Part shown: positions 7,508 to 18,671 of the stretch, one piece after another
Numbering within the stretch: position 1 is the stretch's first letter
Layout: each line of letters starts with the position of its first letter
Assembly (NCBI GenBank): GCA_902572605.1
Contig: CACGGD010000007.1
Coordinates: 1-33,281, forward strand
From: an uncultured Pelagibacteraceae bacterium
GTDB taxonomy: Bacteria > Pseudomonadota > Alphaproteobacteria > Pelagibacterales > Pelagibacteraceae
DNA length: 33,281 bases
Reading direction: 5' to 3'
Notes under the pieces: model-generated
What the model was told of the DNA's origin: nothing
The model's database searches: none
Seen by the model: only the letters and a program-made list of their open reading frames with translations
Made by a program: the position numbers and the translations under genes

Positions 7508-7581
7508 GGCCACGTGGCGGAATGGTTACGCAGAGGATTGCAAATCCTTTTATTCCAGTTCGATTCTGGACGTGGCCTCCA
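7508..7581 (+). tRNA. tRNA-Cys (GCA anticodon)
   Basis: A complete 74-nt cloverleaf. The acceptor strands GGCCACG (7508-7514) and CGTGGCC (7571-7577) pair perfectly, discriminator is T as usual for tRNA-Cys, and CCA is encoded (7579-7581). The anticodon arm AGGAT-TTGCAAA-ATCCT type loop reads GCA, and the T arm contains GTTCGATTC. It lies between divergent valS and the convergent secreted-protein gene that ends 10 bp downstream, and marks the left edge of the accessory segment. Confidence 0.96.
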
Positions 7582-7591
7582 GCAAAATTTA

Positions 7592-8170
7592 TTAAAGAGT
7601 ACCTAACCAATTGTAAAATTCTGAAGTTCCAATCGATACTTCAAATTGATCCATTAAATGTCCATGCACTTCTTTATCTTTTTCATGATAAATAGTACAT
7701 TCCAATTTTACTAAATCACCATTTTTGAATTCAAATTGTGAGATATATTGAGTAGAACTTTGGTAATAATAATGTTTTTGACTACCTTCTCTTAATTTTG
7801 TTTTTGGAAAAAGATTTTTTACTTCTTTAACAGCATTTTTTTTTAAATTCATACACTCTTTTAAACTTGTAATCTCAGTTACACCTCTTACTACATGAAT
7901 TTTAAAATTCTTATCTTTTCTTTTTAAATGGAATAATAAATAATCGTAAGGACCACTTCCTGAAGTTAATTGTGTTTCAAAAAATTTACTATTTTTTGAA
8001 TAGTGACCTTGATCATTATTAGATATCTCATCTTTAGACATATGATTGGATAAATTATCACCAATACTAATGCCCTCTATTTCAAAATCACTAATATCTT
8101 CAGCTTTAACACTAACGATAAAGAATAGCGATAAAGAAAAAATTATAAAAATTTTTTTAATTTTCTTCAT
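7592..8170 (-). CDS. Secreted protein of a three-member local family (copy 1)
   Basis: A 192-residue protein of unknown function with a clear N-terminal signal peptide (KKIKKIFIIFSLSLFFIVSV, cleavage probably after VKA). The mature start EDISDFEIEGISIGDNL matches the mature starts of the proteins encoded at 8170-8754 and 17927-18514, and two cysteines (in LKECMNLKK and LECTIY) are at equivalent places in all three, consistent with a periplasmic disulfide. The gene begins by TAATG overlap with the stop of copy 2, so the two are coupled. It is the last gene of the long minus-strand operon and ends 10 bp from tRNA-Cys. No catalytic motif is recognised. Confidence 0.85.
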   Translation of the reverse strand: MKKIKKIFIIFSLSLFFIVSVKAEDISDFEIEGISIGDNLSNHMSKDEISNNDQGHYSKNSKFFETQLTSGSGPYDYLLFHLKRKDKNFKIHVVRGVTEITSLKECMNLKKNAVKEVKNLFPKTKLREGSQKHYYYQSSTQYISQFEFKNGDLVKLECTIYHEKDKEVHGHLMDQFEVSIGTSEFYNWLGTL

Positions 8171-8754
8171 TATTTATAAGCTTCGTTAATAATAAAATAT
8201 GCATAACCTTCAGTTGATATTGATACTTTTAAATTTTTTCTTAATCCACTTTCTTTTGTGAAATGATAACAATTAATTATTATAGATTCAACTGAGGGAT
8301 AAGGTTTAAAATAATTTTGAATTCCATAAACCATAGATTTTCCTGATTTATCATTGTTGGATTTAAACTCTGTAATTTCATTACTATTAAAATTAAAAAT
8401 TTGTTCTAAAGAGGACTGAATTTCATTTTTTAAACTATTACATTCATCTAAAGTATCATAAAATTTAACCCCTGCTATCCCTTGAATAATAAATTTTTTA
8501 TCATTTTTTTTTATATTAATATTTAGTAAATCAAAATTTTCTAATTTTTTAAATTTTTCTGCTCTATACATTATATATTTATCATTCGTAAATTGAGATT
8601 TTGCTTTAGATGATAAAATTTTATCTAGCGAAGTAAATTCTAATAAACTTTGTCCAACACTAAATCCTTCAAGTTCAAAATCTTGAATTCTATCAGCATA
8701 GGATTTAATTGTTGAAAATAAAAGAATTAAGAAAATGCCTAATATTTTTTTCAT
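8170..8754 (-). CDS. Secreted protein of a three-member local family (copy 2)
   Basis: A 194-residue protein with a signal peptide (MKKILGIFLILLFSTIKSYA) and mature start DRIQDFELEGFSVGQSLLEF, paralogous to the proteins at 7592-8170 and 17927-18514. Shared features are the SVGQSL/SIGDNL-type motif, a KDDKKF-like middle strand, the LDECNSLK cysteine, KSGKSMVYG and a second cysteine in INCYHF. A strong ribosome site AAAGGAG lies 9 bases before the ATG, so the gene can start translation independently although only 19 bp separate it from the upstream lipoprotein gene. Function unknown; the exported location is the only firm inference. Confidence 0.85.
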   Translation of the reverse strand: MKKILGIFLILLFSTIKSYADRIQDFELEGFSVGQSLLEFTSLDKILSSKAKSQFTNDKYIMYRAEKFKKLENFDLLNINIKKNDKKFIIQGIAGVKFYDTLDECNSLKNEIQSSLEQIFNFNSNEITEFKSNNDKSGKSMVYGIQNYFKPYPSVESIIINCYHFTKESGLRKNLKVSISTEGYAYFIINEAYK

Positions 8755-9109: not shown

Positions 9110-9621
9110 TGATTAGTACAATATTGTTTATATTTTAAAGCTTCGTTTTCTGTAATTCCCATTATATTTAATTGTTCATCCTGTGAGTAATTCTTATCAA
9201 AAAAATAACTTGCAGAAGCATTGCCAACCAAACTTAGATAGCACCAATCACTATTATGAGGCTTTCCAAATCTAAGATCGTTAACTGTTTTCCATTCAAA
9301 TCCTGTCCAAATTTTAAATCTTCCAATAACAGGTGATACATCAAACCTTGTTACTTCTTGTGAATAAACAATATTTTCGCCTTCTATGGTTTTATTGATC
9401 TCGGTGCCTTCCTTAACAAGCTCGCTATTAAGATTTTTTTTATAAAGATGGTATGCGTAAGATACTAAAATTAAAAACAAACCCAGCGCTAATAAAAATA
9501 ATGTTAAAGATTTTGTATAACCCCAAACACTTCTGGTATTTCTTATTCGGCTTTTCTCATCAATATATTTGTTTACAGGGCTATAATCATGAACTGAATA
9601 TGTAATTTTTTCATCAGACAT
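9106..9621 (-). CDS. Single-pass membrane protein, unknown function
   Basis: A 171-residue protein with a polar N-terminal tail, one strong transmembrane helix (SLTLFLLALGLFLILVSYAY, about residues 38-58) and a soluble domain of about 110 residues with three cysteines or tryptophan-rich segments (FKIWTGFEWKTVNDLRFG, NSDWCYLSL). The C-terminal YCTNQ ends at the ATGA overlap with the lipoprotein gene. Its own start overlaps the stop of the coiled-coil membrane protein by one base (TAATG). The topology is likely cytosolic N-terminus and periplasmic C-terminal domain. It is not recognised as a known family. Confidence 0.82.
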   Translation of the reverse strand: MSDEKITYSVHDYSPVNKYIDEKSRIRNTRSVWGYTKSLTLFLLALGLFLILVSYAYHLYKKNLNSELVKEGTEINKTIEGENIVYSQEVTRFDVSPVIGRFKIWTGFEWKTVNDLRFGKPHNSDWCYLSLVGNASASYFFDKNYSQDEQLNIMGITENEALKYKQYCTNQ

Positions 9622-11408
9622 TATTTCTTTTTATCCTTTTCGTAATTAGGAGCATTGAAAGGTCCTTTTTTTAATAATGCTTCATCATCTGTAGGAAGTG
9701 GAACATAAACTATTTCTTTTCTTATTGTTTCTTTTGGCACCTCTACTTTTTCATATACAATCTTTGCGCCAACATTTTTTTCAACAATTTTTTCCTTTTC
9801 TACTATTTTCTCAACTTCAACTTCTTTAATTTTGACAATAGGGTCTTTAAGTCTTTTAATTTTTCCCCAAACATACCTATTAATTAAAACGAACATCTTA
9901 GAAAATCTATTAGCAACTCCTCTCCAATTAGCCCCAGGTTTATTTCTAATGGCATGTAATCTAGGATCCAATAAGACCAAACTAGCAAATGCTAACATTG
10001 TGCCAGTAACTGAAATTATAAATCCTAAAACACCAAACCAAAGCCAAAAAGCTGCAGTGAGTGCTGCTCTTGGAATATCTGCATAAACAGACTCTTCTAC
10101 TTTATTTGAACTCAATTTTCGTTTTTTTTCTAAATCTTTTTTCTGATTTTCAAGACTTTTAATTTGGGATTCTATCGCTTCGTTATCCAAATTATTAGTT
10201 TTACTAAACATTGATATTATTTTACCAAACCAGCTTTTTTCAGTTATAGATTTAACTTTTTGATTTTCTAAATCAATTATTTGATCATTTACTTTTTTGA
10301 TTTCTTTGTTGTAATCAATGACAAACCATCCTTTTAACCATGTGGCCACTCTAAATACTTGATTATTAGGAGCTAACTCATCTATTTCAGCAATAAGTTC
10401 ATTTTTTCTATCTTTCAATTCAATAATTTTAATTACTTTTTCTTTTTCATCTAATCTAAAAGTCTCCTTTTTTTCTTCTAAAATCTTAATTTCATTATCA
10501 AGAAGTTTTTTTTCTTCTGTAAGTGATAATAATTGATTTTTGTTATCTTGATTAATAATTGAGATTTGACCTTCATTATCTCTGTTAGATGATTTAATTA
10601 AATCTTTTAACTGTTCGTTTTTTTCATCTTTATCTTTTTCATATTTTTCTATTCTAATATTATTTTGTTCAATTGTTGCATCAATGCCTTTTTTATTAGA
10701 TCCAAAAACTTTACTATCTTTTTGACCAGATAATGTAGTATTTGATTTTAGCAATATCTCAATATTTTTTTCTAAATCTATAATTTCTTGCTTTAGCTGA
10801 TTTATGCTGTCCTGATCAACATTTGACTCTTTTACACTTTGAATTTGTTTTTGAGAGTTAAGGTTTATTTGACCTATTTGTTCATTTAATTCCGCTCTTC
10901 TTTTTATTAAAATTTCTATTTCTTCATTAATATTGTTAACCTCAACATTTTCATTAATATTTTCAATTTGTGTTTTAACGCTATTATATTCAACAATTTT
11001 TTTATCTACTCTTTTAGTTACTTCTCTATTTCTTATTTCAAAACCAGTAATAATTGTTTCAAATGTTGAAATATTTACTAATATTAATGCTATTAAAAAA
11101 ACAACTCTCCAAAATAATCTTACCGAATAATAAACAGCTGTTGCTAAAGGAATTTTAGTTAGCTCTACAACTGCAACAATGATGAATATCATTCCAATAG
11201 TTAAATCATTTAAACTCACCCCCATTGATGCCAAGTCTGTTACATCTGCTACACCTTGGGCACCTCTTATTATTAATATTCCAACACACAAACCTATAAA
11301 TGCTACAAGAATTTCAACACCCCATGCCATTCTTAAAAGAAAAATTCCTTTTTTAGTCGTCTGAGATTGTGGGAAAAACTTATTAAAAATATTATCTAGA
11401 TTTGGCAT
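9621..11408 (-). CDS. Large coiled-coil inner-membrane protein
   Basis: A 595-residue protein with three N-terminal hydrophobic helices (about residues 24-47, 70-92 and 96-118), a long heptad-like coiled coil (about 125-435) rich in E, K, N and I, one more hydrophobic segment (about 443-478, in AAFWLWFGVLGFIISV), and a charged tail with a repeated VEKIVEKEKIVEK-type stretch. The layout (N-terminal helices, coiled coil, returning TM helix) resembles DUF4407-like membrane proteins, but that is a resemblance of architecture only. The start overlaps the end of the TerB-like gene by 17 bp and the stop overlaps the next gene by one base, so it is the central member of a tightly coupled operon. It may be a scaffold or sensor spanning the periplasm. 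Confidence 0.85.
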   Translation of the reverse strand: MPNLDNIFNKFFPQSQTTKKGIFLLRMAWGVEILVAFIGLCVGILIIRGAQGVADVTDLASMGVSLNDLTIGMIFIIVAVVELTKIPLATAVYYSVRLFWRVVFLIALILVNISTFETIITGFEIRNREVTKRVDKKIVEYNSVKTQIENINENVEVNNINEEIEILIKRRAELNEQIGQINLNSQKQIQSVKESNVDQDSINQLKQEIIDLEKNIEILLKSNTTLSGQKDSKVFGSNKKGIDATIEQNNIRIEKYEKDKDEKNEQLKDLIKSSNRDNEGQISIINQDNKNQLLSLTEEKKLLDNEIKILEEKKETFRLDEKEKVIKIIELKDRKNELIAEIDELAPNNQVFRVATWLKGWFVIDYNKEIKKVNDQIIDLENQKVKSITEKSWFGKIISMFSKTNNLDNEAIESQIKSLENQKKDLEKKRKLSSNKVEESVYADIPRAALTAAFWLWFGVLGFIISVTGTMLAFASLVLLDPRLHAIRNKPGANWRGVANRFSKMFVLINRYVWGKIKRLKDPIVKIKEVEVEKIVEKEKIVEKNVGAKIVYEKVEVPKETIRKEIVYVPLPTDDEALLKKGPFNAPNYEKDKKK

Positions 11409-11877
11409 TTATTTTTCCTGTTAAGTTTTTAATTTTGTGCATAATATTTAATCCTAAATTATTTGTAGAAGCGAATATATTATCTAAAAATGTTTTTTTT
11501 ACTTCAAATATTTCAGCTACTTTTTTAATATCTTTATCTTCTTCTTCACTATAGATGTGATCGCTATGTGCAAGCCTGTAAAGAACAGCAATAATAAATT
11601 CCAAAAAATCTTTATGTCTATCGACTAATAATTTTTGTATTCTTACAGCATGGTATTCTATTGGATGAGGATCATTTCCACCTTCTTCCATTATTTTTAA
11701 AAGCATTTTTTTCTGTTGTGGATTGTGAGGAATAATCTTTAAAATTTCTTCCTCTTCATGAATATTGAAATGTCCATCATTCTTACACAGTTTTGCTGCC
11801 AAAATTAAAACACCTATTATACAAATAGTTTGCTGGCTTTCTTTTCTATATTTATCCCAGATGGCAGAACTGCTCAT
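11392..11877 (-). CDS. TerB-like (DjlA N-terminal-like) helical protein
   Basis: A predicted cytosolic all-helical protein of 161 residues. It shows the two acidic repeats typical of TerB/DjlA-N domains: LAAKLCKNDGHFNIHEEEEI early and LAHSDHIYSEEEDKDIKKV late, i.e. DGxxxxxE-type loops followed by helices. TerB domains occur in tellurite-resistance and envelope-stress systems where they bind metal or membrane partners. The longest frame starts at 11982, inside the upstream lipoprotein gene; the ATG at 11877 (MSSSAIWDKYRKE) begins where the domain begins and is chosen, while the ATG at 11937 is an alternative. It overlaps the following membrane-protein gene by 17 bp, implying a joint complex. 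Family assignment is from pattern only. Confidence 0.75.
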   Translation of the reverse strand: MSSSAIWDKYRKESQQTICIIGVLILAAKLCKNDGHFNIHEEEEILKIIPHNPQQKKMLLKIMEEGGNDPHPIEYHAVRIQKLLVDRHKDFLEFIIAVLYRLAHSDHIYSEEEDKDIKKVAEIFEVKKTFLDNIFASTNNLGLNIMHKIKNLTGKINAKSR

Positions 11878-11923
11878 TTTATAAAATTTAACCACTTTTT
11901 TATTCTTGTTTAAAGAATAATTT

Positions 11924-12190
11924 TTATTGATAATCATAACCTTTTTTGTACATACATGTTTTAAAAGTTGCCTCATAACCAATAAGTTGATCTAAAACTT
12001 TATTAGTTTCGTCTGGATCACACATTAAAGGATTTCTACAAATATATCCTGGATACTGAGATCTAGCTAAGGCCTTGCAATAACCATTATCTCTACTAAT
12101 TGAATTATTATTACCAGAGTGATGTGACCATGTTCCTGATGCACATGAAGTTAATAAAGATATTAAAAGAATATTAATTATAAATTTCAT
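11924..12190 (-). CDS. Small cysteine-rich lipoprotein
   Basis: An 88-residue predicted lipoprotein. The signal MKFIINILLISLLTSCAS carries a lipobox (LLTS-C, Cys16). The mature part has cysteines in GYCKALAR, YICRNPLMCDP and FKTCMYKKGYDYQ; the closing CMxKKGY motif is common in small bacterial lipoproteins with a disulfide. The start overlaps the upstream membrane-protein gene by 4 bp. It is one of two lipoproteins in the operon, suggesting envelope function; nothing more specific can be read. Confidence 0.82.
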   Translation of the reverse strand: MKFIINILLISLLTSCASGTWSHHSGNNNSISRDNGYCKALARSQYPGYICRNPLMCDPDETNKVLDQLIGYEATFKTCMYKKGYDYQ

Positions 12191-12846: not shown

Positions 12847-13083
12847 ATGAAAAGAAGATTAATTGTATTAGGAATTCTAGCTTTATGGTCTAGTTCACTT
12901 TTTGCTTCAGAAATGAATGATTTATTGGAAAAAAATTTTAAAATTATAAAAACTGAGATCGTCAAATTTGAAAGAAAAGCATTAAAATTATTTACTTTAA
13001 AAAATGGAAAAAATATTTATTTATGTTTAAGTGAAATTGATCGTCGATATGGATTTGATGATACAGAGTGTATAAAACCCTAA
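12847..13083 (+). CDS. Small secreted protein
   Basis: A 78-residue protein with a typical signal peptide (KRRLIVLGILALWSSSLFA, cleavage probably before SEMNDLL) and a short mature domain with two cysteines, in IYLCLSEID and DTECIKP, that could form a disulfide. The start lies 32 bp past the nested inverted repeats and the gene precedes the caspase-like gene by about 100 bp. Those 100 bp (13084-13185) contain a short TAACAATT/AATTGTA inverted repeat and otherwise nothing recognised. The protein matches no family known to me. Confidence 0.75.
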   Translation: MKRRLIVLGILALWSSSLFASEMNDLLEKNFKIIKTEIVKFERKALKLFTLKNGKNIYLCLSEIDRRYGFDDTECIKP

Positions 13084-13185: not shown

Positions 13186-14679
13186 ATGACTTTAGTGTTT
13201 AAAAAAATTTTTACACTTGTATTCGTTAGCTTCTTTTTAATTTCATCTGTAGACGCTGCGTGGATAACAAAAAAAACTGATAAATCTAAGGAAGAAATCA
13301 AAGAAGATAAAAAACAAAAAAATAAGTGGATTCAATTTAATAAACTAAAAAGTAAGTTTAAAAAAAAAGAAATTAAAGAAAATAAAAAAAAATATAAAAA
13401 AGAAGAAAAAAAAATTACAAAAGAAGTAAAAAGTTGGATTACAAAAAAATCTAAAGTTACCTATATAGATAGTGTTGATAAACTTCCCGATGGAGTTATT
13501 TACTTTGCTGGAGCTGATGAAACAAAAGATCTTTTATTTTATGGTTATGTTAAACCTGACACCAGTTCAAAAAAAATTAACGGTTACTATGAAACTAGCA
13601 AGGGCGTAGGTTATTTGAATGATGGAAAAACTACCTGTAAAATTGGCTCTACAGTCGTAGATGTATCATCTGGATTAGTTACTGCAAGAGTGTCTGGTAA
13701 ATGTACAAATGGAATTATATTTAACGGTAGCACCTCCCAAACTAAAAACTCTGGCATGGGTTTTGCTGTGACAAAAGATGGTAAAAATAAATTTCTCTTT
13801 GATTTCAATGTTCAAAAGACAATTATTGCTAAGATATTTGAAACAAATAAAGAATTTACAGAAACTCAAGTTGTAGAACGAAAGCTCCCATCTAAAAAAA
13901 GAAAGAAAATTACTTTAAAACCAAACGGGAAATATTATGCTCTTTTAATTGGCAATTCTGTCTATAATGATAAAGGTTGGGATCAACTAGTATCACCAGT
14001 TAATGACATTGATGAAATAAAAAAAGTTTTAGATAATAGTTATAAATTCGAAAAAATTATTACTGTTAAGAACGGGACTAAAAAAGAAATCTTTAGATCG
14101 TTTACAGAACTTTCGAAGCTAACAACTACAAATGATTATGTTTTAATTTATTATTCAGGGCACGGCACAACAAAAGCAGAACAGGCTTATTGGATACCAA
14201 AAGATGGAAGTGCTAATTGGGGAAATGGTGATTGGATAAATATTAATGAATTAAACATATTTTTAACAGAGATTAAGGCCCATCATTTAGCAGTAATGGT
14301 AGACTCTTGTTATGTAGGTGGAAAATTTAAAGGAGTTAACATACTTGATCTTAAAAAGGATGAGCATGTTGATTTGTTTAATCAAAATTTAAAGGATGGA
14401 TTAAATTTAAGAGCTCGATCAGTTTTAGCCTCGGGAAGCAAAGGCCGTGTGAGTGACACAGCTGCAGGTACAAATCATTCTAGATTTGCCTTAGCTTTAA
14501 TAAATATTCTTGAAACTGCTAATAAACAGTCTGTGCCTTTAAATATGACTAACATTGCATTAAACGTAAAATTGGCATTTGCAGGAAATTTTAGTCAAAA
14601 ACCAATCCTTTATCACCCGAGTACATGGCAACATGGAGGTGGAGATTTTATATTCATACCTAAAAAAAATCTTAAATGA
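13186..14679 (+). CDS. Secreted caspase-like protease (peptidase C14 / metacaspase type)
   Basis: A 497-residue exported cysteine peptidase. Residues 1-25 are a signal peptide (IFTLVFVSFFLISSVDA); 26-90 are a very Lys-rich linker with WITKK at 26-30 and again at 84-88; about 92-225 are a beta-rich domain with repeated YFAGADE, FYGYVKPD and GVGYLNDG strands; about 245-490 are the caspase fold. It shows YYALLIGNSVY (first strand), the catalytic His326 in YYSGHG and catalytic Cys375 in VMVDSCYVGG, the correct dyad for clan CD. ASGSKGRVSD and a C-terminal HPSTWQHGGGDFIF follow. Substrate preference after Arg/Lys is typical of bacterial relatives. The stop overlaps the next protease gene as ATGA, so the two proteases are co-translated. 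Periplasmic location is inferred from the signal. Confidence 0.9.
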   Translation: MTLVFKKIFTLVFVSFFLISSVDAAWITKKTDKSKEEIKEDKKQKNKWIQFNKLKSKFKKKEIKENKKKYKKEEKKITKEVKSWITKKSKVTYIDSVDKLPDGVIYFAGADETKDLLFYGYVKPDTSSKKINGYYETSKGVGYLNDGKTTCKIGSTVVDVSSGLVTARVSGKCTNGIIFNGSTSQTKNSGMGFAVTKDGKNKFLFDFNVQKTIIAKIFETNKEFTETQVVERKLPSKKRKKITLKPNGKYYALLIGNSVYNDKGWDQLVSPVNDIDEIKKVLDNSYKFEKIITVKNGTKKEIFRSFTELSKLTTTNDYVLIYYSGHGTTKAEQAYWIPKDGSANWGNGDWININELNIFLTEIKAHHLAVMVDSCYVGGKFKGVNILDLKKDEHVDLFNQNLKDGLNLRARSVLASGSKGRVSDTAAGTNHSRFALALINILETANKQSVPLNMTNIALNVKLAFAGNFSQKPILYHPSTWQHGGGDFIFIPKKNLK

Positions 14680-15956
14680 TTAAGAAGATATATTTTATTT
14701 TAATAGTTTTTTTATATTTTTCACCAAGTCAAGCAAATGTAACAAATACTCTTTTATTAAATTCATCTATATTGGGCAAAGAAAACTTAGAAATAACTGC
14801 CACTCCGCTATCAGATAAAAATCAAATAAAAAACTTAAAATTAGATATTCAAAAAAACAAAGAATATTTGATTAATATCAATCCAAAATTAGTTCGCAAT
14901 AATAAGAACAGACCTCCAAAAACAAAGTTTAAAGGAGGAGCAGAGGAAATTTATGATGAATACGCTAACAGTGTTGTGTTTATAGGAAATAAAAAAAAAG
15001 GTGGTGCTGGTTCAGGGTTTGTAATTAATCATAAAGGTAAAAAAATTATTACAAATTGGCATGTAATTGAAGGAGCTAAGAAAGTAAGGGTGTGGCTTAA
15101 ACCAAAAAATTTAGTCGATGAAAGATATATGATAGGTAAGAACGAGTCTTATATTGCTAATGTTATTAAAGTTGACAGAGAAAAAGATTTAGCACTATTA
15201 GATATTTCAGGTTTACCCAGTAACATCAAGCCTGTTGTCTTTGGAAACTTTGATGATTTGAAAGTAGGAGAAACTGTTTTTGCTATAGGTCATCCAGGAG
15301 AATTAATTTGGAGTTTTAATAGTGGTATGGTTAGTCAAATTCGCCGTAATTACAAATGGGAATACCGTGACTCATATCATCTTGCTAATGTAATACAAAC
15401 TCAAACTCCAATTAATCCAGGAAATTCTGGTGGTCCTTTATTTGATAAAAATAAAAAACTAGTTGGAGTTAACACGTTTACTACTGAAGGTGAAAATCTA
15501 AATTTTGCTGTAGCTGTTAATGACTTGACTGATTTTTTAAAGAAGCCTGAAAAAAAAATTAAAGAAAATAAATATATTAAAAAAAAAGATAAAGGTCCAA
15601 CTTGGATAACTAAAAAAAAGAAAGGAAGTAAAAAAAACAGTATTGATATTAAATTCCCTAACGCCATAAAACGTGATTCGGATAAAAATGGTATAACGGA
15701 CATTTGGTTTATAGACGAAAATAAGAACGGAAAAATTGATACAGCAGCAATTGATATAAATGAGGATGGAATTATTGAAACAGTAGCATTTGACGCAAAT
15801 GAGAACGGTAATTTTGAAATTTTTCTATTCGATGATGACCTTGATGGTAACGCAGACAGAGCGGAAATTGACGAAGATGATAATGGGACCTCAGATATTA
15901 TGGCTTACGACTATGACCAAGATGGTAAATGGGATAAATACAAAGATATTTCCTAA
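14676..15956 (+). CDS. Secreted trypsin-like (S1C/HtrA-type) protease with Asp-rich repeat tail
   Basis: A 426-residue exported serine protease. After a signal peptide (residues 1-20) and a spacer to about residue 95 comes a trypsin-fold domain with the complete triad: H129 in TNWHVIEGAKKV, D171 in DREKDLALLDI and S251 in NPGNSGGPLFD. No PDZ domain follows, unlike DegP/DegQ. Instead a Lys-rich linker containing WITKK (310-314), the motif also seen twice in the caspase protein, leads to seven exact 13-residue repeats (334-424) of the DxDxxGxxD calcium-loop kind. The gene overlaps the caspase gene by 4 bp, indicating one functional unit; one protease may activate the other by cutting at Lys-rich linkers. 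It ends 2 bp from a convergent gene. Confidence 0.92.
   Translation: MIKKIYFILIVFLYFSPSQANVTNTLLLNSSILGKENLEITATPLSDKNQIKNLKLDIQKNKEYLININPKLVRNNKNRPPKTKFKGGAEEIYDEYANSVVFIGNKKKGGAGSGFVINHKGKKIITNWHVIEGAKKVRVWLKPKNLVDERYMIGKNESYIANVIKVDREKDLALLDISGLPSNIKPVVFGNFDDLKVGETVFAIGHPGELIWSFNSGMVSQIRRNYKWEYRDSYHLANVIQTQTPINPGNSGGPLFDKNKKLVGVNTFTTEGENLNFAVAVNDLTDFLKKPEKKIKENKYIKKKDKGPTWITKKKKGSKKNSIDIKFPNAIKRDSDKNGITDIWFIDENKNGKIDTAAIDINEDGIIETVAFDANENGNFEIFLFDDDLDGNADRAEIDEDDNGTSDIMAYDYDQDGKWDKYKDIS
15675..15947 (+). repeat. Seven tandem 39-bp (13-residue) Asp-rich repeats
   Basis: The tail of the trypsin-like protein is seven head-to-tail 13-residue units starting at residues 334, 347, 360, 373, 386, 399 and 412. 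Each follows DxDxxGxx(D/E) then three to four mostly hydrophobic residues, e.g. DENKNGKIDTAAI and DINEDGIIETVAF. The DxDxDG-like spacing resembles calcium-binding loops of EF-hand, dockerin or thrombospondin type-3 repeats. DNA copies are diverged, so this is an old protein repeat and not a recent DNA duplication. Confidence 0.9.
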
Positions 15957-15958
15957 AA

Positions 15959-16426
15959 TTAATTCTTAACATCTATTTTTAGTCTTATTCTCAGTATTTT
16001 GTTTTCTAATTCAGTAATAGCCTGATCAATTTCTCTTTTTTCCAATGGGGAAATTTCTGGACCTTTATCACTTTTTGGATCTTTCGCGCCTTGAACAAGT
16101 TCTGTAAGCTTACCATGAAGAATTGTGGACTTAACAAGCATTTCATTAATATCTTTATTTTCAATATCCAGATTATTGTCTAAAACTTCAGCAATCATAT
16201 GCTCATATGATGTAAATAGAGGTGGTGCCTTACCTTTTTTTATACAAAATTCATCTAACTTAAAAGAGTCGTTGTGATCTATTTGCTGAGGTAAATCAGG
16301 ATTGCTGCATTTTCTGATGTAGGAAGAGGTTTTACCAATAGCCTCTTGAATCTCTTCATCGGTTAAAACTTTTAAAACTTTCATTAACCCGTTTTCTATA
16401 GAAGCACTTTTTCTTATCTTTGCCAT
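15959..16426 (-). CDS. Cro-like helix-turn-helix DNA-binding protein
   Basis: A 155-residue cytosolic protein. The N-terminal part (GLMKVLKVLTDEEIQEAIGK then TSSYIRKCSNPDLPQQID) looks like a helix-turn-helix followed by the YIRKCSNPD...L-x-D-x-F segment seen in phage-type regulatory proteins of alphaproteobacteria, in which a specificity helix reads SYVRxCSDP. The rest is helical and charged. It converges on the trypsin-like gene (2 bp apart) and is divergent from the ion-channel gene, with 46 bp between the chosen starts, so it is placed to regulate the channel gene. The family is judged from pattern; confidence in DNA binding is moderate. Confidence 0.7.
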   Translation of the reverse strand: MAKIRKSASIENGLMKVLKVLTDEEIQEAIGKTSSYIRKCSNPDLPQQIDHNDSFKLDEFCIKKGKAPPLFTSYEHMIAEVLDNNLDIENKDINEMLVKSTILHGKLTELVQGAKDPKSDKGPEISPLEKREIDQAITELENKILRIRLKIDVKN

Positions 16427-16472
16427 TTTAAGTATTATGATTATAATAAGAATAAGTACAATAAAATACTTT

Positions 16473-17924
16473 ATGAATTATAAAAAAATTATAATCCTTT
16501 TTACTAGTTTTATTATATTTTTTTCAACTAATTTAAAAGCTAGTATAAGCGATGAGTTTCATAATAAGATAGTTGAAAGGGGATTAACAGCCAAATATCC
16601 CTTTCTTAAAAGAAATAATGACATTGGAATATTTTATGATTTTGCTTGGAGCAAAAAATACAAAAAGATTATCATTAAAAGAGATGGAAAAAATTATCCA
16701 ATAGTCAGGTATTCTTTATTTAATAAAAAAGATATTAAAAAAGGTAATTCAATTTATAAATATAATGATACAGATCTGTCAAAGATTTCAGACAAAGAAA
16801 TTGAAGCTCTGCACTCACAAAATAAAACTGCTAAACTAAGTTTAAATAATAATAAAATAGTAAATTTAGAACCTTACATCTACGATTACAATGAAGTCAA
16901 ATTAGCAAAATTTGATTTAGAATTTATAAATAAAATTGATACAAATAAGGGTCTACTTGAAATTTCCTTTGCAGCAGACTTTGTAAATCTGAGACCAGAA
17001 TTAAATGAGATTGGAAAAAATTTATTAACAAACGAACCTTTGCCGGCAGATCTACGATATGGATACTTTCCAATTTTATCTCCAGAATTTCAGGAATATA
17101 AATATGACATTGATATAAGAACTGGTATAAAGACTCCAAATCCAGACGGTCTTCCAGTTTATTTTTCTTATGACAAAAATGAAGTTATTACTTTAAGAGA
17201 AGAAAAAGGTATAGGGCAGTTTAGACAACAATTCGATTTTAAAGATTTTCCTTTTGATAATCAAAAATTAATAATTTCAATTGTTTCAGGTGCTACTAAT
17301 TCTTCAAATCCTGATAACGCATGGCCAGAAACTGGCTATGGAGCAGTTCATTTTATTTCTCCAGACAAGGGGGCTTTTTTAGGTTTAGAAAACTATTTAA
17401 ATAATGTTTCTAAAAATTACCTTAAAGAATGGACAGTTAAGAATGTAGACATCAATAGCGAAGAGATTATTAAAGAAAATTATTATAATAAATTTTTAAA
17501 GAAAAACGTTTCATACAATGAAAATGCTATAAATATAATAATTGATATTGAAAGAAACTCAGCGCATTATGTTTATAAAATAATTTTACCCGTATTTTTG
17601 ATTTTAAGCGTTGCTTGGTTTGTTTTATGGATTCCAACTTCTAAACTGGATGCAAGACTTACAACGTCTATGGTTGCGTTGCTTTCATTAATTGCATACA
17701 ATTTTGTATTTTCTGAAGATATACCAAAATTAAATTATCTTACTGCTTTAGATAAGTATATTTTATTATCCTATATATTCTGTTGTATACCTACTTTTAT
17801 GAGTATCGGTTTTAGTAGATTTATCGTGAAAAACCAAAAAGCGGTGATTTTAGTTAACAAAAAATTAAGAACATGGTTAGGGCTTATTTATTTATTATTA
17901 ACAATTCAAATATTTAGCTTTTAA
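16473..17924 (+). CDS. Pentameric ligand-gated ion channel homologue (Cys-loop receptor family)
   Basis: A 483-residue channel-type protein. A signal peptide (NYKKIIILFTSFIIFFSTNL) is followed by an extracellular/periplasmic region to about residue 365, then four helices. The loop equivalent to the Cys loop is FPFDNQ (259-264), lacking the cysteines, as in prokaryotic members. M1 is 369-388 with the conserved Pro373, M2 is about 394-413, the M2-M3 loop has Pro418, M3 is about 426-448 after YLTALDK, M4 is about 466-483. Aligning M2 to GLIC through the A-x-N pair (A408, N410) puts Asp393 at the acidic -2' position, which suggests cation selectivity. About 110-140 residues precede the usual ligand-binding domain. 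The frame is open from 16437, but 16473 gives the signal peptide and leaves promoter room. Confidence 0.87.
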   Translation: MNYKKIIILFTSFIIFFSTNLKASISDEFHNKIVERGLTAKYPFLKRNNDIGIFYDFAWSKKYKKIIIKRDGKNYPIVRYSLFNKKDIKKGNSIYKYNDTDLSKISDKEIEALHSQNKTAKLSLNNNKIVNLEPYIYDYNEVKLAKFDLEFINKIDTNKGLLEISFAADFVNLRPELNEIGKNLLTNEPLPADLRYGYFPILSPEFQEYKYDIDIRTGIKTPNPDGLPVYFSYDKNEVITLREEKGIGQFRQQFDFKDFPFDNQKLIISIVSGATNSSNPDNAWPETGYGAVHFISPDKGAFLGLENYLNNVSKNYLKEWTVKNVDINSEEIIKENYYNKFLKKNVSYNENAINIIIDIERNSAHYVYKIILPVFLILSVAWFVLWIPTSKLDARLTTSMVALLSLIAYNFVFSEDIPKLNYLTALDKYILLSYIFCCIPTFMSIGFSRFIVKNQKAVILVNKKLRTWLGLIYLLLTIQIFSF

Positions 17925-17926
17925 CA

Positions 17927-18514
17927 TTAAAATGCGTCTCCTGACTCTAAAAAGGTTCTCATTTCAAGAGAATGTAAAACTAATCTTAAATTATCTACCC
18001 AATTTTTTTCGGCTGATATTTTATCGCCCCAGTCAGTGCAATAAAGATCAATTGCACCATTTTTAAAATAAAAAAGATATCCATAAGTCATGCTCTTACC
18101 TGTTTTATCGTATCCATGAATAGAGTCTACTTTTTGAAATTTTATTGATGGAATAGATTCTTTAATATCATTCAAAATTATTGTCATTTTTTTTTTGCAC
18201 CCTATCATGTCACTATCAAAATTCATCATTCCACTTATTGAAAAAATTTTATAATTTTTATCGCTTGGTTTTAATACTACTTGAATTTTATCATATTCAT
18301 TATTATTCGTTGGTAGTGTAATTCCCATAAATTTTTTATCTTTATAAAAATTTTTAGTATTTTTTATGCTGTATTGAATTTCATCTTTAGAGTAATGACT
18401 TAAAAGACTTTCTCCAACAGATATTCCTGAGATTTCTAAATTCTCTAAGTTTTCCGCTAAAACAGAATTTAATTGAATTAAGCTTAGAATTATAAATACT
18501 AAAAACTTTCTCAT
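17927..18514 (-). CDS. Secreted protein of a three-member local family (copy 3)
   Basis: A 195-residue exported protein paralogous to the two at 7592-8754. The signal peptide is MRKFLVFIILSLIQLNSVLA, and the mature start ENLENLEISGISVGESLLSH has the same xxLEIxGISVGxSL signature. KSMTYGYLFYF matches KSMVYGIQNYF of copy 2, and cysteines in MIGCKKK and DLYCTDW match the other copies. The frame extends to 18529 but the ATG at 18514 starts the signal peptide. It converges on the channel gene with 2 bp between stops and lies 81 bp before tRNA-Asn, so the family members sit at both edges of the tRNA-bounded segment. Function unknown. Confidence 0.83.
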   Translation of the reverse strand: MRKFLVFIILSLIQLNSVLAENLENLEISGISVGESLLSHYSKDEIQYSIKNTKNFYKDKKFMGITLPTNNNEYDKIQVVLKPSDKNYKIFSISGMMNFDSDMIGCKKKMTIILNDIKESIPSIKFQKVDSIHGYDKTGKSMTYGYLFYFKNGAIDLYCTDWGDKISAEKNWVDNLRLVLHSLEMRTFLESGDAF

Positions 18515-18595
18515 TATTAACATTATCAATATTTTAATATTTTTGTAAATTTTATGGTTGTTTTATTTTTTTAAAAAAAGTATGTTCATTTTCAT

Positions 18596-18671
18596 TCCTC
18601 GGTAGCTCAGTTGGTAGAGCAGTTGACTGTTAATCAATTGGTCGCAGGTTCGAGTCCTGCCCGAGGAGCCA
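18596..18671 (+). tRNA. tRNA-Asn (GTT anticodon)
   Basis: A complete 76-nt cloverleaf. Acceptor TCCTCGG (18596-18602) pairs with CCGAGGA (18661-18667), discriminator G, CCA encoded at 18669-18671. D arm GCTCAGTTGGTAGAGC, anticodon GTT at 18629-18631, T arm CAGGTTCGAGTCCTG. It marks the right edge of the accessory segment; the XRE gene ends 12 bp beyond it on the other strand. Confidence 0.97.

Follow-up and report, generated by a model that had tools for sequence, protein, structure and literature searches.

Bacterial caspases are mostly known as cytosolic components of immunity or stress responses. Bacterial gasdermins have caspase-like partners, and both the gasdermin and the CARD-NLR systems act in the cytosol. 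The DegS/HtrA envelope-stress proteases, which work with RseA and sigma-E, are a familiar case of periplasmic serine proteases acting on a partner in the inner membrane. What prokaryotic pentameric channels do in nature is, to our knowledge, largely unknown. Here we describe an island within a 33,281-nucleotide stretch of DNA (the window; GenBank assembly GCA_902572605.1, contig CACGGD010000007.1) from an uncultured Pelagibacteraceae bacterium. Islands of this kind join apparently exported pairs of a trypsin and a caspase, or a CHAT protease (another caspase-fold protease domain), to a pentameric channel, and in relatives to PrsW, in SAR11-type ocean bacteria, whose genomes are very small. The island offers a concrete, testable role for bacterial caspases and pentameric channels, namely envelope surveillance through proteolysis, and it suggests an alarm or self-destruct pathway located in the cell envelope rather than inside the cell.

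Effectors switched on by proteases are well documented in bacteria: CARD-NLR systems place proteases upstream of a membrane effector (PMC13236601), and canu caspase-nuclease loci and trypsin-nuclease pairs (Hachiman, AVAST) each consist of two genes, the product of one activating that of the other by proteolysis (PMC12799240). Possible signal-peptide N-terminal helices have been noted in orthocaspases (bacterial metacaspases), for which extracellular roles were speculated in 2012 (PMC3501461), and DeCLIC-type prokaryotic pentameric ligand-gated ion channels (pLGICs) carry an extra periplasmic N-terminal domain (PMC9897478, PMC12664993). Like the gasdermin and CARD-NLR operons, the island would, in our proposed reading, place proteases upstream of a membrane effector; unlike them, its proteases are predicted to be exported and its membrane protein is a homologue of Cys-loop-type channels. 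Unlike the canu, Hachiman and AVAST pairs, the window pair has no nuclease that we could find in the window, and both partners are proteases with signal-peptide-like N-termini. The window caspase shares Peptidase_C14 and a His-Cys dyad with the orthocaspases but differs from them in its barrel prodomain, WI-x-K-K array, trypsin partner and channel island; the words 'trypsin', 'SAR11' and 'Pelagibacter' are absent from the main text of PMC3501461. Unlike DegS/HtrA, the window trypsin carries acidic repeats instead of a detectable PDZ domain and has a caspase partner, and unlike the DeCLIC type, the SAR11 channel is linked to PrsW and proteases and has a PDZ-like N-terminus in some relatives. 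Neither an ion channel nor PrsW nor a caspase came up in a passage search of a paper on microbial PDZ proteins (PMC6411480). With the PADLOC caspase/trypsin anti-phage systems, the island gives matches to protease-domain models and a marginal match of W595, a protein of the adjoining operon, to LmuB (expectation value, E, 0.003); such systems are cytosolic, and the window proteases are predicted, by heuristic, to be exported. The island genes scanned gave no match to gasdermin, CARD or NLR, and their Pfam results included no gasdermin, nuclease, NLR or reverse transcriptase partner. The island may work like protease-triggered membrane effectors, yet it falls outside those families by their own membership tests. 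In the open-licence literature searched (titles and the beginnings of abstracts), we found no description of a caspase or CHAT protease, a trypsin and a pentameric channel together outside the cytoplasm.

The two proteases and their catalytic codons lie as follows.

13186–14679, + strand: caspase-fold protease, Peptidase_C14, 497 residues, predicted exported (Pfam, alignment, AlphaFold2 model, Foldseek/VIA)
14161–14163 and 14308–14310, + strand: codons of the caspase dyad, His326 and Cys375 (alignment)
14676–15956, + strand: HtrA-type serine protease, 426 residues, predicted exported (Pfam, alignment of 14, PDB profile, NCBIfam)
15060–15062, 15186–15188 and 15426–15428, + strand: codons of the trypsin triad, His129, Asp171 and Ser251 (alignment)

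The two open reading frames (ORFs), both on the + strand, share the bases ATGA at 14676–14679. This overlap, the catalytic residues and a signal peptide on each protein had been claimed in a first-pass annotation of the window, whose observation of a caspase-trypsin pair is confirmed here. The dyad is unchanged in all eight aligned caspases (the frameshifted caspase of locus L043 was excluded) and the triad in all 14 aligned trypsins. Export features were recognised in every one of these sequences, with no further transmembrane stretch in any, using our own heuristic (positive n-region, hydrophobic core and plausible cleavage site) and not SignalP. The close relatives in the genome collection are single cells of Pelagibacteraceae or Pelagibacterales; eight loci found there (L040–L047), four of them contigs also counted as genomes (G005, G035, G205 and G413), form with the window a set of nine close loci. 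The caspase and trypsin genes are adjacent in all nine, with a 4-base ATGA-like overlap in seven, a 5-base gap in L045 and a 1-base overlap in L046. The order caspase, trypsin, small protein (SML), channel is also constant throughout the set, with an extra 227-residue ORF after the trypsin in L042. The annotation had named separation of the two genes in relatives, or variable signal peptides or catalytic residues, as observations that would speak against it; neither was seen.

The caspase carries the Peptidase_C14 domain of orthocaspases and metacaspases (64.5 bits against a Pfam cut-off of 21.4) and does not pass the EACC1-associated caspase model (NCBIfam NF047832; 69.5 bits, cut-off 140). 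A predicted signal peptide (residues 1–24) is followed by a Lys-rich helix bearing WITKK at either end, a prodomain (about 100–221), a linker (222–242) and the catalytic part (250–497). The AlphaFold2 model (predicted local distance difference test, pLDDT, 73; predicted template-modelling score, pTM, 0.51) contains the Lys-rich helix at 35–74, an eight-stranded domain at 105–207, a low-confidence linker and the catalytic domain, and the prodomain is described here as a predicted beta barrel. Structural comparison (VIA) matches the model best to metacaspase 4 (Z 19.1, 207 residues, root-mean-square deviation 2.7) and also to MALT1 (Z 17.7, 201 residues, 3.0). Matches of the barrel, from a search that mainly covered the catalytic domain, are weak (E 8e-4 and weaker) and comprise designed and lipocalin-like barrels that name no family. 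Asp373 of the VDSC motif, conserved in 8/8 aligned caspases, sits where metacaspases and paracaspases carry the acid that selects Arg or Lys at P1, and by itself points to cleavage after Arg/Lys. In L043 the caspase gene has a frameshift in its poly-A-rich Lys segment (L043:7986–8500) and is otherwise open, either a sequencing error or phase variation.

The trypsin matches Trypsin_2 at 103.6 bits (Pfam cut-off 27.6) and, with its intact triad, has the HtrA-type domain; the 60 PDB profile matches shown are mostly HtrA/Deg enzymes. Full-length HtrA family models are not reached (Do, 130.8 bits against 416.2; DegS, 70.4 against 423; NCBIfam), and no PDZ domain was found (Pfam, E 0.01). The C-terminus, at residues ~334–422, consists of acidic D-x-[DN]-x-[DN]-G repeats that probably bind Ca. 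'Trypsin' is here the name of a fold. We know of no Lys specificity among HtrA enzymes, and the caspase alone is therefore expected to cut Lys-rich sites.

Pairing extends beyond the close loci. Among 397 genomes of Pelagibacterales, Pfam finds caspases in 12, a lower bound because G259 and G357 were missed and came to light on reading neighbourhoods; with these two added, 14 caspase genomes were used for co-occurrence. In a smaller sample the count is 4/61, the window genome included. Adjacent caspase-trypsin pairs also occur in G132, G264, G259 and G357, and in G398, on a contig of 4 kb, the caspase frame that the trypsin overlaps is truncated by the contig end, and a second, shorter caspase frame lies 603 bases away. 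Leaving out G147 from the 12 Pfam genomes, a trypsin-like gene lies within 6 kb of at least one caspase in 11 of the 11 neighbourhoods examined. In most of them the two genes overlap or are separated by a few bases; outside the adjacent pairs and G398, the trypsin-like gene overlaps by a few bases in G320, lies at 2.5 kb in G026 and occurs as a TPR-trypsin at 70 bases (G354), 2.1 kb (G306) and 5.4 kb (G273). The detection profile was built from the trypsins under study and recovered 24/24 DegP-like proteins and 3/3 TPR-trypsins as a control. A caspase beside a trypsin as the usual arrangement in Alphaproteobacteria was rejected: in a sample of the class 77 caspase places matched outside the window genome, 29 of these were fetched, and a trypsin-like frame lay within ~1.5 kb, or up to the contig end, in 0/29, against 8/15 caspase loci of Pelagibacterales under the same test.

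The Lys-rich linkers that the first-pass annotation saw in both proteins are present, and they carry a rare shared motif, WI-x-K-K.

13261–13275, + strand: WITKK motif 1, right behind the point where the caspase signal peptide is predicted to be cleaved (8/8 aligned caspases)
13435–13449, + strand: WITKK motif 2, at the end of the caspase Lys-rich helix (7/8 aligned caspases; YITKK in L044)
15603–15617, + strand: WITKK in the trypsin linker between protease domain and acidic repeats (trypsin alignment)

Trypsin residues T309, W310, I311 and K314 are invariant in the 12 sequences left when the motif-free L073 and L039 are removed from the 14. Shuffling gives an expectation of 0.01 for the wider WI-x-K-K pattern in the caspase and 0.006 in the trypsin; the window has 2 and 1, counts reached in 0/1000 and 6/1000 shuffles. 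The 48 WITKK-coding sites in 25 genomes comprise 19 in these caspases and trypsins, one in an 87-residue repeat protein of G306, two in a nucleotidyltransferase-like gene (by eye; G047, G048) and 26 in non-gene-like frames of 12–93 residues. Among 19 trypsins, the linker of 14 contains WI-x-[KR]-K, that of G408 has YITKK and four have no motif, the partners of these four being motif-free caspases (G320, G026), a CHAT protein (G373) or no caspase (G156). A motif-bearing caspase adjoins 12 of the 14 motif-bearing trypsins; for G398 it is the contig's other caspase frame that shows the motif, and the caspase adjoining the G357 trypsin has lost its N-terminus at the contig end. Six caspases in Pelagibacterales are motif-free (three in G320, and those of G026, G273 and G354). 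The occurrence of the motif in both proteases strengthens the idea that they communicate.

For the motif taken alone, and compatibly with the other readings, there is a serious possibility, if one a little short of probable, that WI-x-K-K does not mark a cut site but serves as a cationic-aromatic anchor, holding both proteases to lipid or peptidoglycan and so bringing them together. An anchor would fit the copy directly after the signal peptide, where cleavage would achieve little, the repetition of the motif up to three times in one caspase, and the G306 protein composed largely of such repeats; a cut site is favoured by the interdomain position in the trypsin and by the expectation that a caspase of this type cleaves after Lys. 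The G306 protein itself (L075:2993–3256) has a signal-peptide-like start, consists mostly of WI-K-type repeats, lies near a WITKK caspase and could be a decoy or inhibitor.

The caspase is mosaic. Identities in the barrel and in the catalytic part are 97% and 62% between the window and L047 caspases, 37% and 90% between L044 and L042, and 86% and 50% between L044 and L045. Trypsin and channel alleles also group differently from each other. From these alignments it looks as if alleles exchange the prodomain separately from the catalytic domain, as would be expected for a sensor, which is not proof of sensing, and the mosaic looks like the module recombination of recognition systems. Given this swapping, exchanging domains would put the sensor hypothesis to a direct test.

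Downstream of the pair lie two genes that the first-pass annotation had missed, as it had PrsW in relatives, the CHAT replacement and the prodomain swapping.

15959–16426, − strand: SML, small protein of 155 residues, no signal peptide (by eye), no named family (adjoins the pair in 9/9 close loci)
16437–17924, + strand: CHAN, homologue of pentameric ligand-gated ion channels, 495 residues (family profile against DeCLIC, Pfam, NCBIfam)

CHAN has a hydrophobic N-terminus, an extended N-terminal region, an FPFD loop and a C-terminal membrane domain. The channel family profile matches DeCLIC 6v4a with E 4e-31, and 9ftg and 6v4a are its best PDB profile matches. Neur_chan_memb is matched in 17/17 family members and Neur_chan_LBD in 8/17 (E<=1), homology at the family level thus extending over the ligand-binding and membrane domains. 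On its own, the window channel matches Neur_chan_memb alone, at 24.8 bits, under the cut-off of 28.1, and scores 79.4 bits with NCBIfam LGIC_1 (cut-off 500). Alignment by hhalign to the PDZ of SAR11 Deg proteins gives a probability of 0.3 for the window channel group and 58 for five distant relatives; no PDZ was seen in the G168 channel. At L187:5229–6788 a pentameric channel homologue with a PDZ over the Pfam cut-off shares its gene run with PrsW and an HtrA-type protease.

Among the 397 genomes, the channel is present in 43, SML in 43 and PrsW (over its cut-off) in 46. Channel and PrsW occur together in 25 of the 43 channel genomes, within 10 kb in 25/25 (Fisher p 5e-16); channel and SML occur together in 23, within 10 kb in 21 (p 3e-14); and the channel is present in 7 of the 14 caspase genomes (p 2e-4), all three p-values being uncorrected for kinship. 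The 34 channel loci examined contain PrsW in 25, SML in 26, the acidic-repeat trypsin in 15 and a C14 caspase in 12. The SML count is inflated because some loci were picked for having channel and SML; PrsW was no selection criterion. SML and the channel as core flanking genes in the smaller sample were rejected, SML being found in 8/61 genomes and the channel in 10/61.

In G373 a CHAT protease replaces the caspase, judging by gene order: SML, PrsW, channel, trypsin and CHAT follow on one strand with overlapping ends (4 bases between trypsin and channel), and the 1218-residue CHAT protein (domain E 4.4e-44; hydrophobic N-terminus by eye) is at the caspase's expected place. In G156 the same run of SML, PrsW, channel and trypsin is followed by short ORFs, with no CHAT or caspase found after the trypsin. 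In G026 and G320 a sigma-factor-like and an anti-sigma-like gene lie close to the trypsin and caspases. This context suggests that caspase-trypsin pairs act on inner-membrane proteins; an inner-membrane target of such pairs may therefore recur. Sister islands at L039:681–7928 and L073:4899–15809 combine an acidic-repeat trypsin with sigma-like and anti-sigma-like genes and small proteins; each has two or three caspases, and by eye some of these contain MORN-like repeats.

From gene coupling, catalytic residues, predicted export, the motif, channel/PrsW linkage, CHAT replacement and mosaicism, we tentatively read the island as an extracytoplasmic protease-channel surveillance system or envelope alarm, a reading that we regard as plausible without calling it probable, in which sensed damage or a ligand would activate the caspase and the caspase would process the trypsin. 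The exported caspase would be kept inactive or tethered by its Lys-rich helix and variable barrel prodomain, and the barrel may bind a periplasmic ligand or damage product. Active caspase would cut behind lysines in or close to the WI-x-K-K units, both its own and the one in the trypsin linker, and so detach the HtrA-type domain from the acidic repeats, which probably bind Ca. The proteases would then act on a protein of the inner membrane that exposes a domain to the periplasm. The likeliest candidate in this island is the pentameric channel: its N-terminus on the periplasmic side, which carries a PDZ in some relatives, may be trimmed or may bind newly made peptide ends, the pore would open or close, and growth would stop or the cell would die. 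We think unlikely a more specific version, a proteolysis-gated Cys-loop channel, in which attack or kin is sensed by a caspase with a polymorphic barrel (or by a CHAT protease) that activates the PDZ-less HtrA protease via WI-x-K-K, and the pair opens the PDZ-linked channel, a relative of neurotransmitter receptors, and depolarises the cell as an extracytoplasmic counterpart of pyroptosis. The first-pass interpretation is partly supported by these data. Mutual zymogen activation of caspase and trypsin is a hypothesis, and a phage trigger gained no support, viral contig scans with caspase, channel, SML and trypsin profiles and short patterns having returned no relative and the PADLOC matches being single protease models. 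A viral origin was rejected on the same scans.

Several points weigh against the envelope-alarm reading. The channel and the caspase are separable: 7 of the 14 caspase genomes have no channel, just 12 of the 34 channel loci have a C14 caspase, and the G132 pair stands on a 13.9-kb contig with neither channel nor SML. PrsW has no match in the window genome (909 kb, 82% complete) and is missing in three of the nine close loci as examined (window, L043 and L047). The structure model of the channel, from a 9-sequence alignment, is poor (pLDDT 38, pTM 0.25) and gives no basis for gating or docking. PDZ matches occur in 5/17 channel homologues and are weak (best E 0.004), one distant homologue, in G156, exceeds the Pfam cut-off, and none is detected in the window channel by Pfam or hhalign. 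The sigma-factor-like genes of G026 and G320 score under the extracytoplasmic function (ECF) cut-off (40.6 and 34.2 against 42.9 bits), and of the anti-sigma-like proteins one has zf-HC2 under its cut-off, the membrane segment being assigned by eye. The motif correlation between caspase and trypsin may reflect one ancestral event. Finally, the trigger, the cleavage order, the channel as target and the outcome are inferred from sequence.

A rather unlikely alternative is regulated-proteolysis signalling, in which the pair acts in the manner of DegS-type site-1 proteases and feeds into PrsW or some other intramembrane step; transcription or SML activity would then be the output, and the channel would be co-regulated and not a target. 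PrsW is the site-1 protease for an anti-sigma factor in Bacillus; this role and the PrsW-channel linkage favour signalling, and the sigma-like context of the trypsin and caspases in G026 and G320 keeps it alive. The absence of PrsW from the window genome and the sub-threshold sigma labels count against it too, however, and no sigma-factor or anti-sigma gene was seen among the ORFs and Pfam results of the window island. Envelope quality control, with both enzymes as periplasmic housekeeping proteases for damaged proteins and the island merely grouping envelope genes, would agree with a protease domain nearest to HtrA/Do enzymes and with intact catalytic residues, but the caspase is rare and patchy (4/61 genomes, against some HtrA-like match in 49/61), no PDZ was found in the trypsin and the caspase prodomain is swapped, so that we consider it distinctly improbable. 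Secreted or surface antagonism or kin recognition, with the polymorphic prodomain and multi-copy DUFS proteins (a ~200-residue family described below) acting on neighbour cells, is very unlikely: it would account for the caspase allele mosaic and for DUFS tandem arrays of up to seven copies beside islands, but the Pfam results for the scanned island genes (not every gene) contain no secretion-system or toxin family, and the channel is of the inner-membrane type.

The remaining features of the island and its flanks are these.

7508–7581, + strand: tRNA-Cys, left flank of the island (ARAGORN)
9621–11408, − strand: W595, membrane and coiled-coil protein of 595 residues (by eye), TerB operon (recurrence in relatives)
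11392–11982, − strand: TerB-like protein gene, first in the adjoining membrane operon (Pfam TerB, 26.2 bits against 24.4)
12847–13083, + strand: small gene upstream of the caspase, 78 residues, signal-peptide-like N-terminus (by eye), candidate regulator (tblastn)
18596–18671, + strand: tRNA-Asn, right flank of the island (ARAGORN)

The 78-residue gene also precedes the caspase in six of the eight other close loci (L041–L046; 57–62% identical by tblastn). Further upstream of the pair, L040–L042 and L044–L046 have PrsW-S304-M499, and L043 has the same genes minus PrsW; the window has the TerB-W595 operon instead. This is the envelope operon that the first-pass annotation placed next door, and it is found again in G109 and G113, next to channel and PrsW, and in G259, next to the caspase-trypsin pair. 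The TerB-like gene is found again near CHAN in L197, L198 and L184; homologues of W595 adjoin CHAN and PrsW in L197 and L198 (E 2e-67 and 9e-66), and a W595-like frame in L184 is truncated by the locus end (E 8e-8). The window SML has no Pfam or NCBIfam match at E 0.01; in its family there are weak Pfam matches for one relative, PHROGs without a name in 2/11 members (best E 2.4e-10) and a marginal match to a CII-like activator (E 0.05). A promoter scan was uninformative (30 sites against 31.8 in shuffles).

The DUFS-type proteins have signal-peptide-like starts and the sequence 'IEGISIGDSLL'; three are encoded in the window (7592–8170, 8170–8754 and 17927–18529), without a Pfam match, and others in L043 and L044. 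Related islands occupy other chromosomal sites, some of them near tRNA-Leu (L040, L045 and L046). In the caspase-free islands L186, L190, L192, L193 and L194 a flavin amine-oxidase-like gene adjoins the channel, a label given by Pfam for L192 and by similar N-terminus and size for the others.

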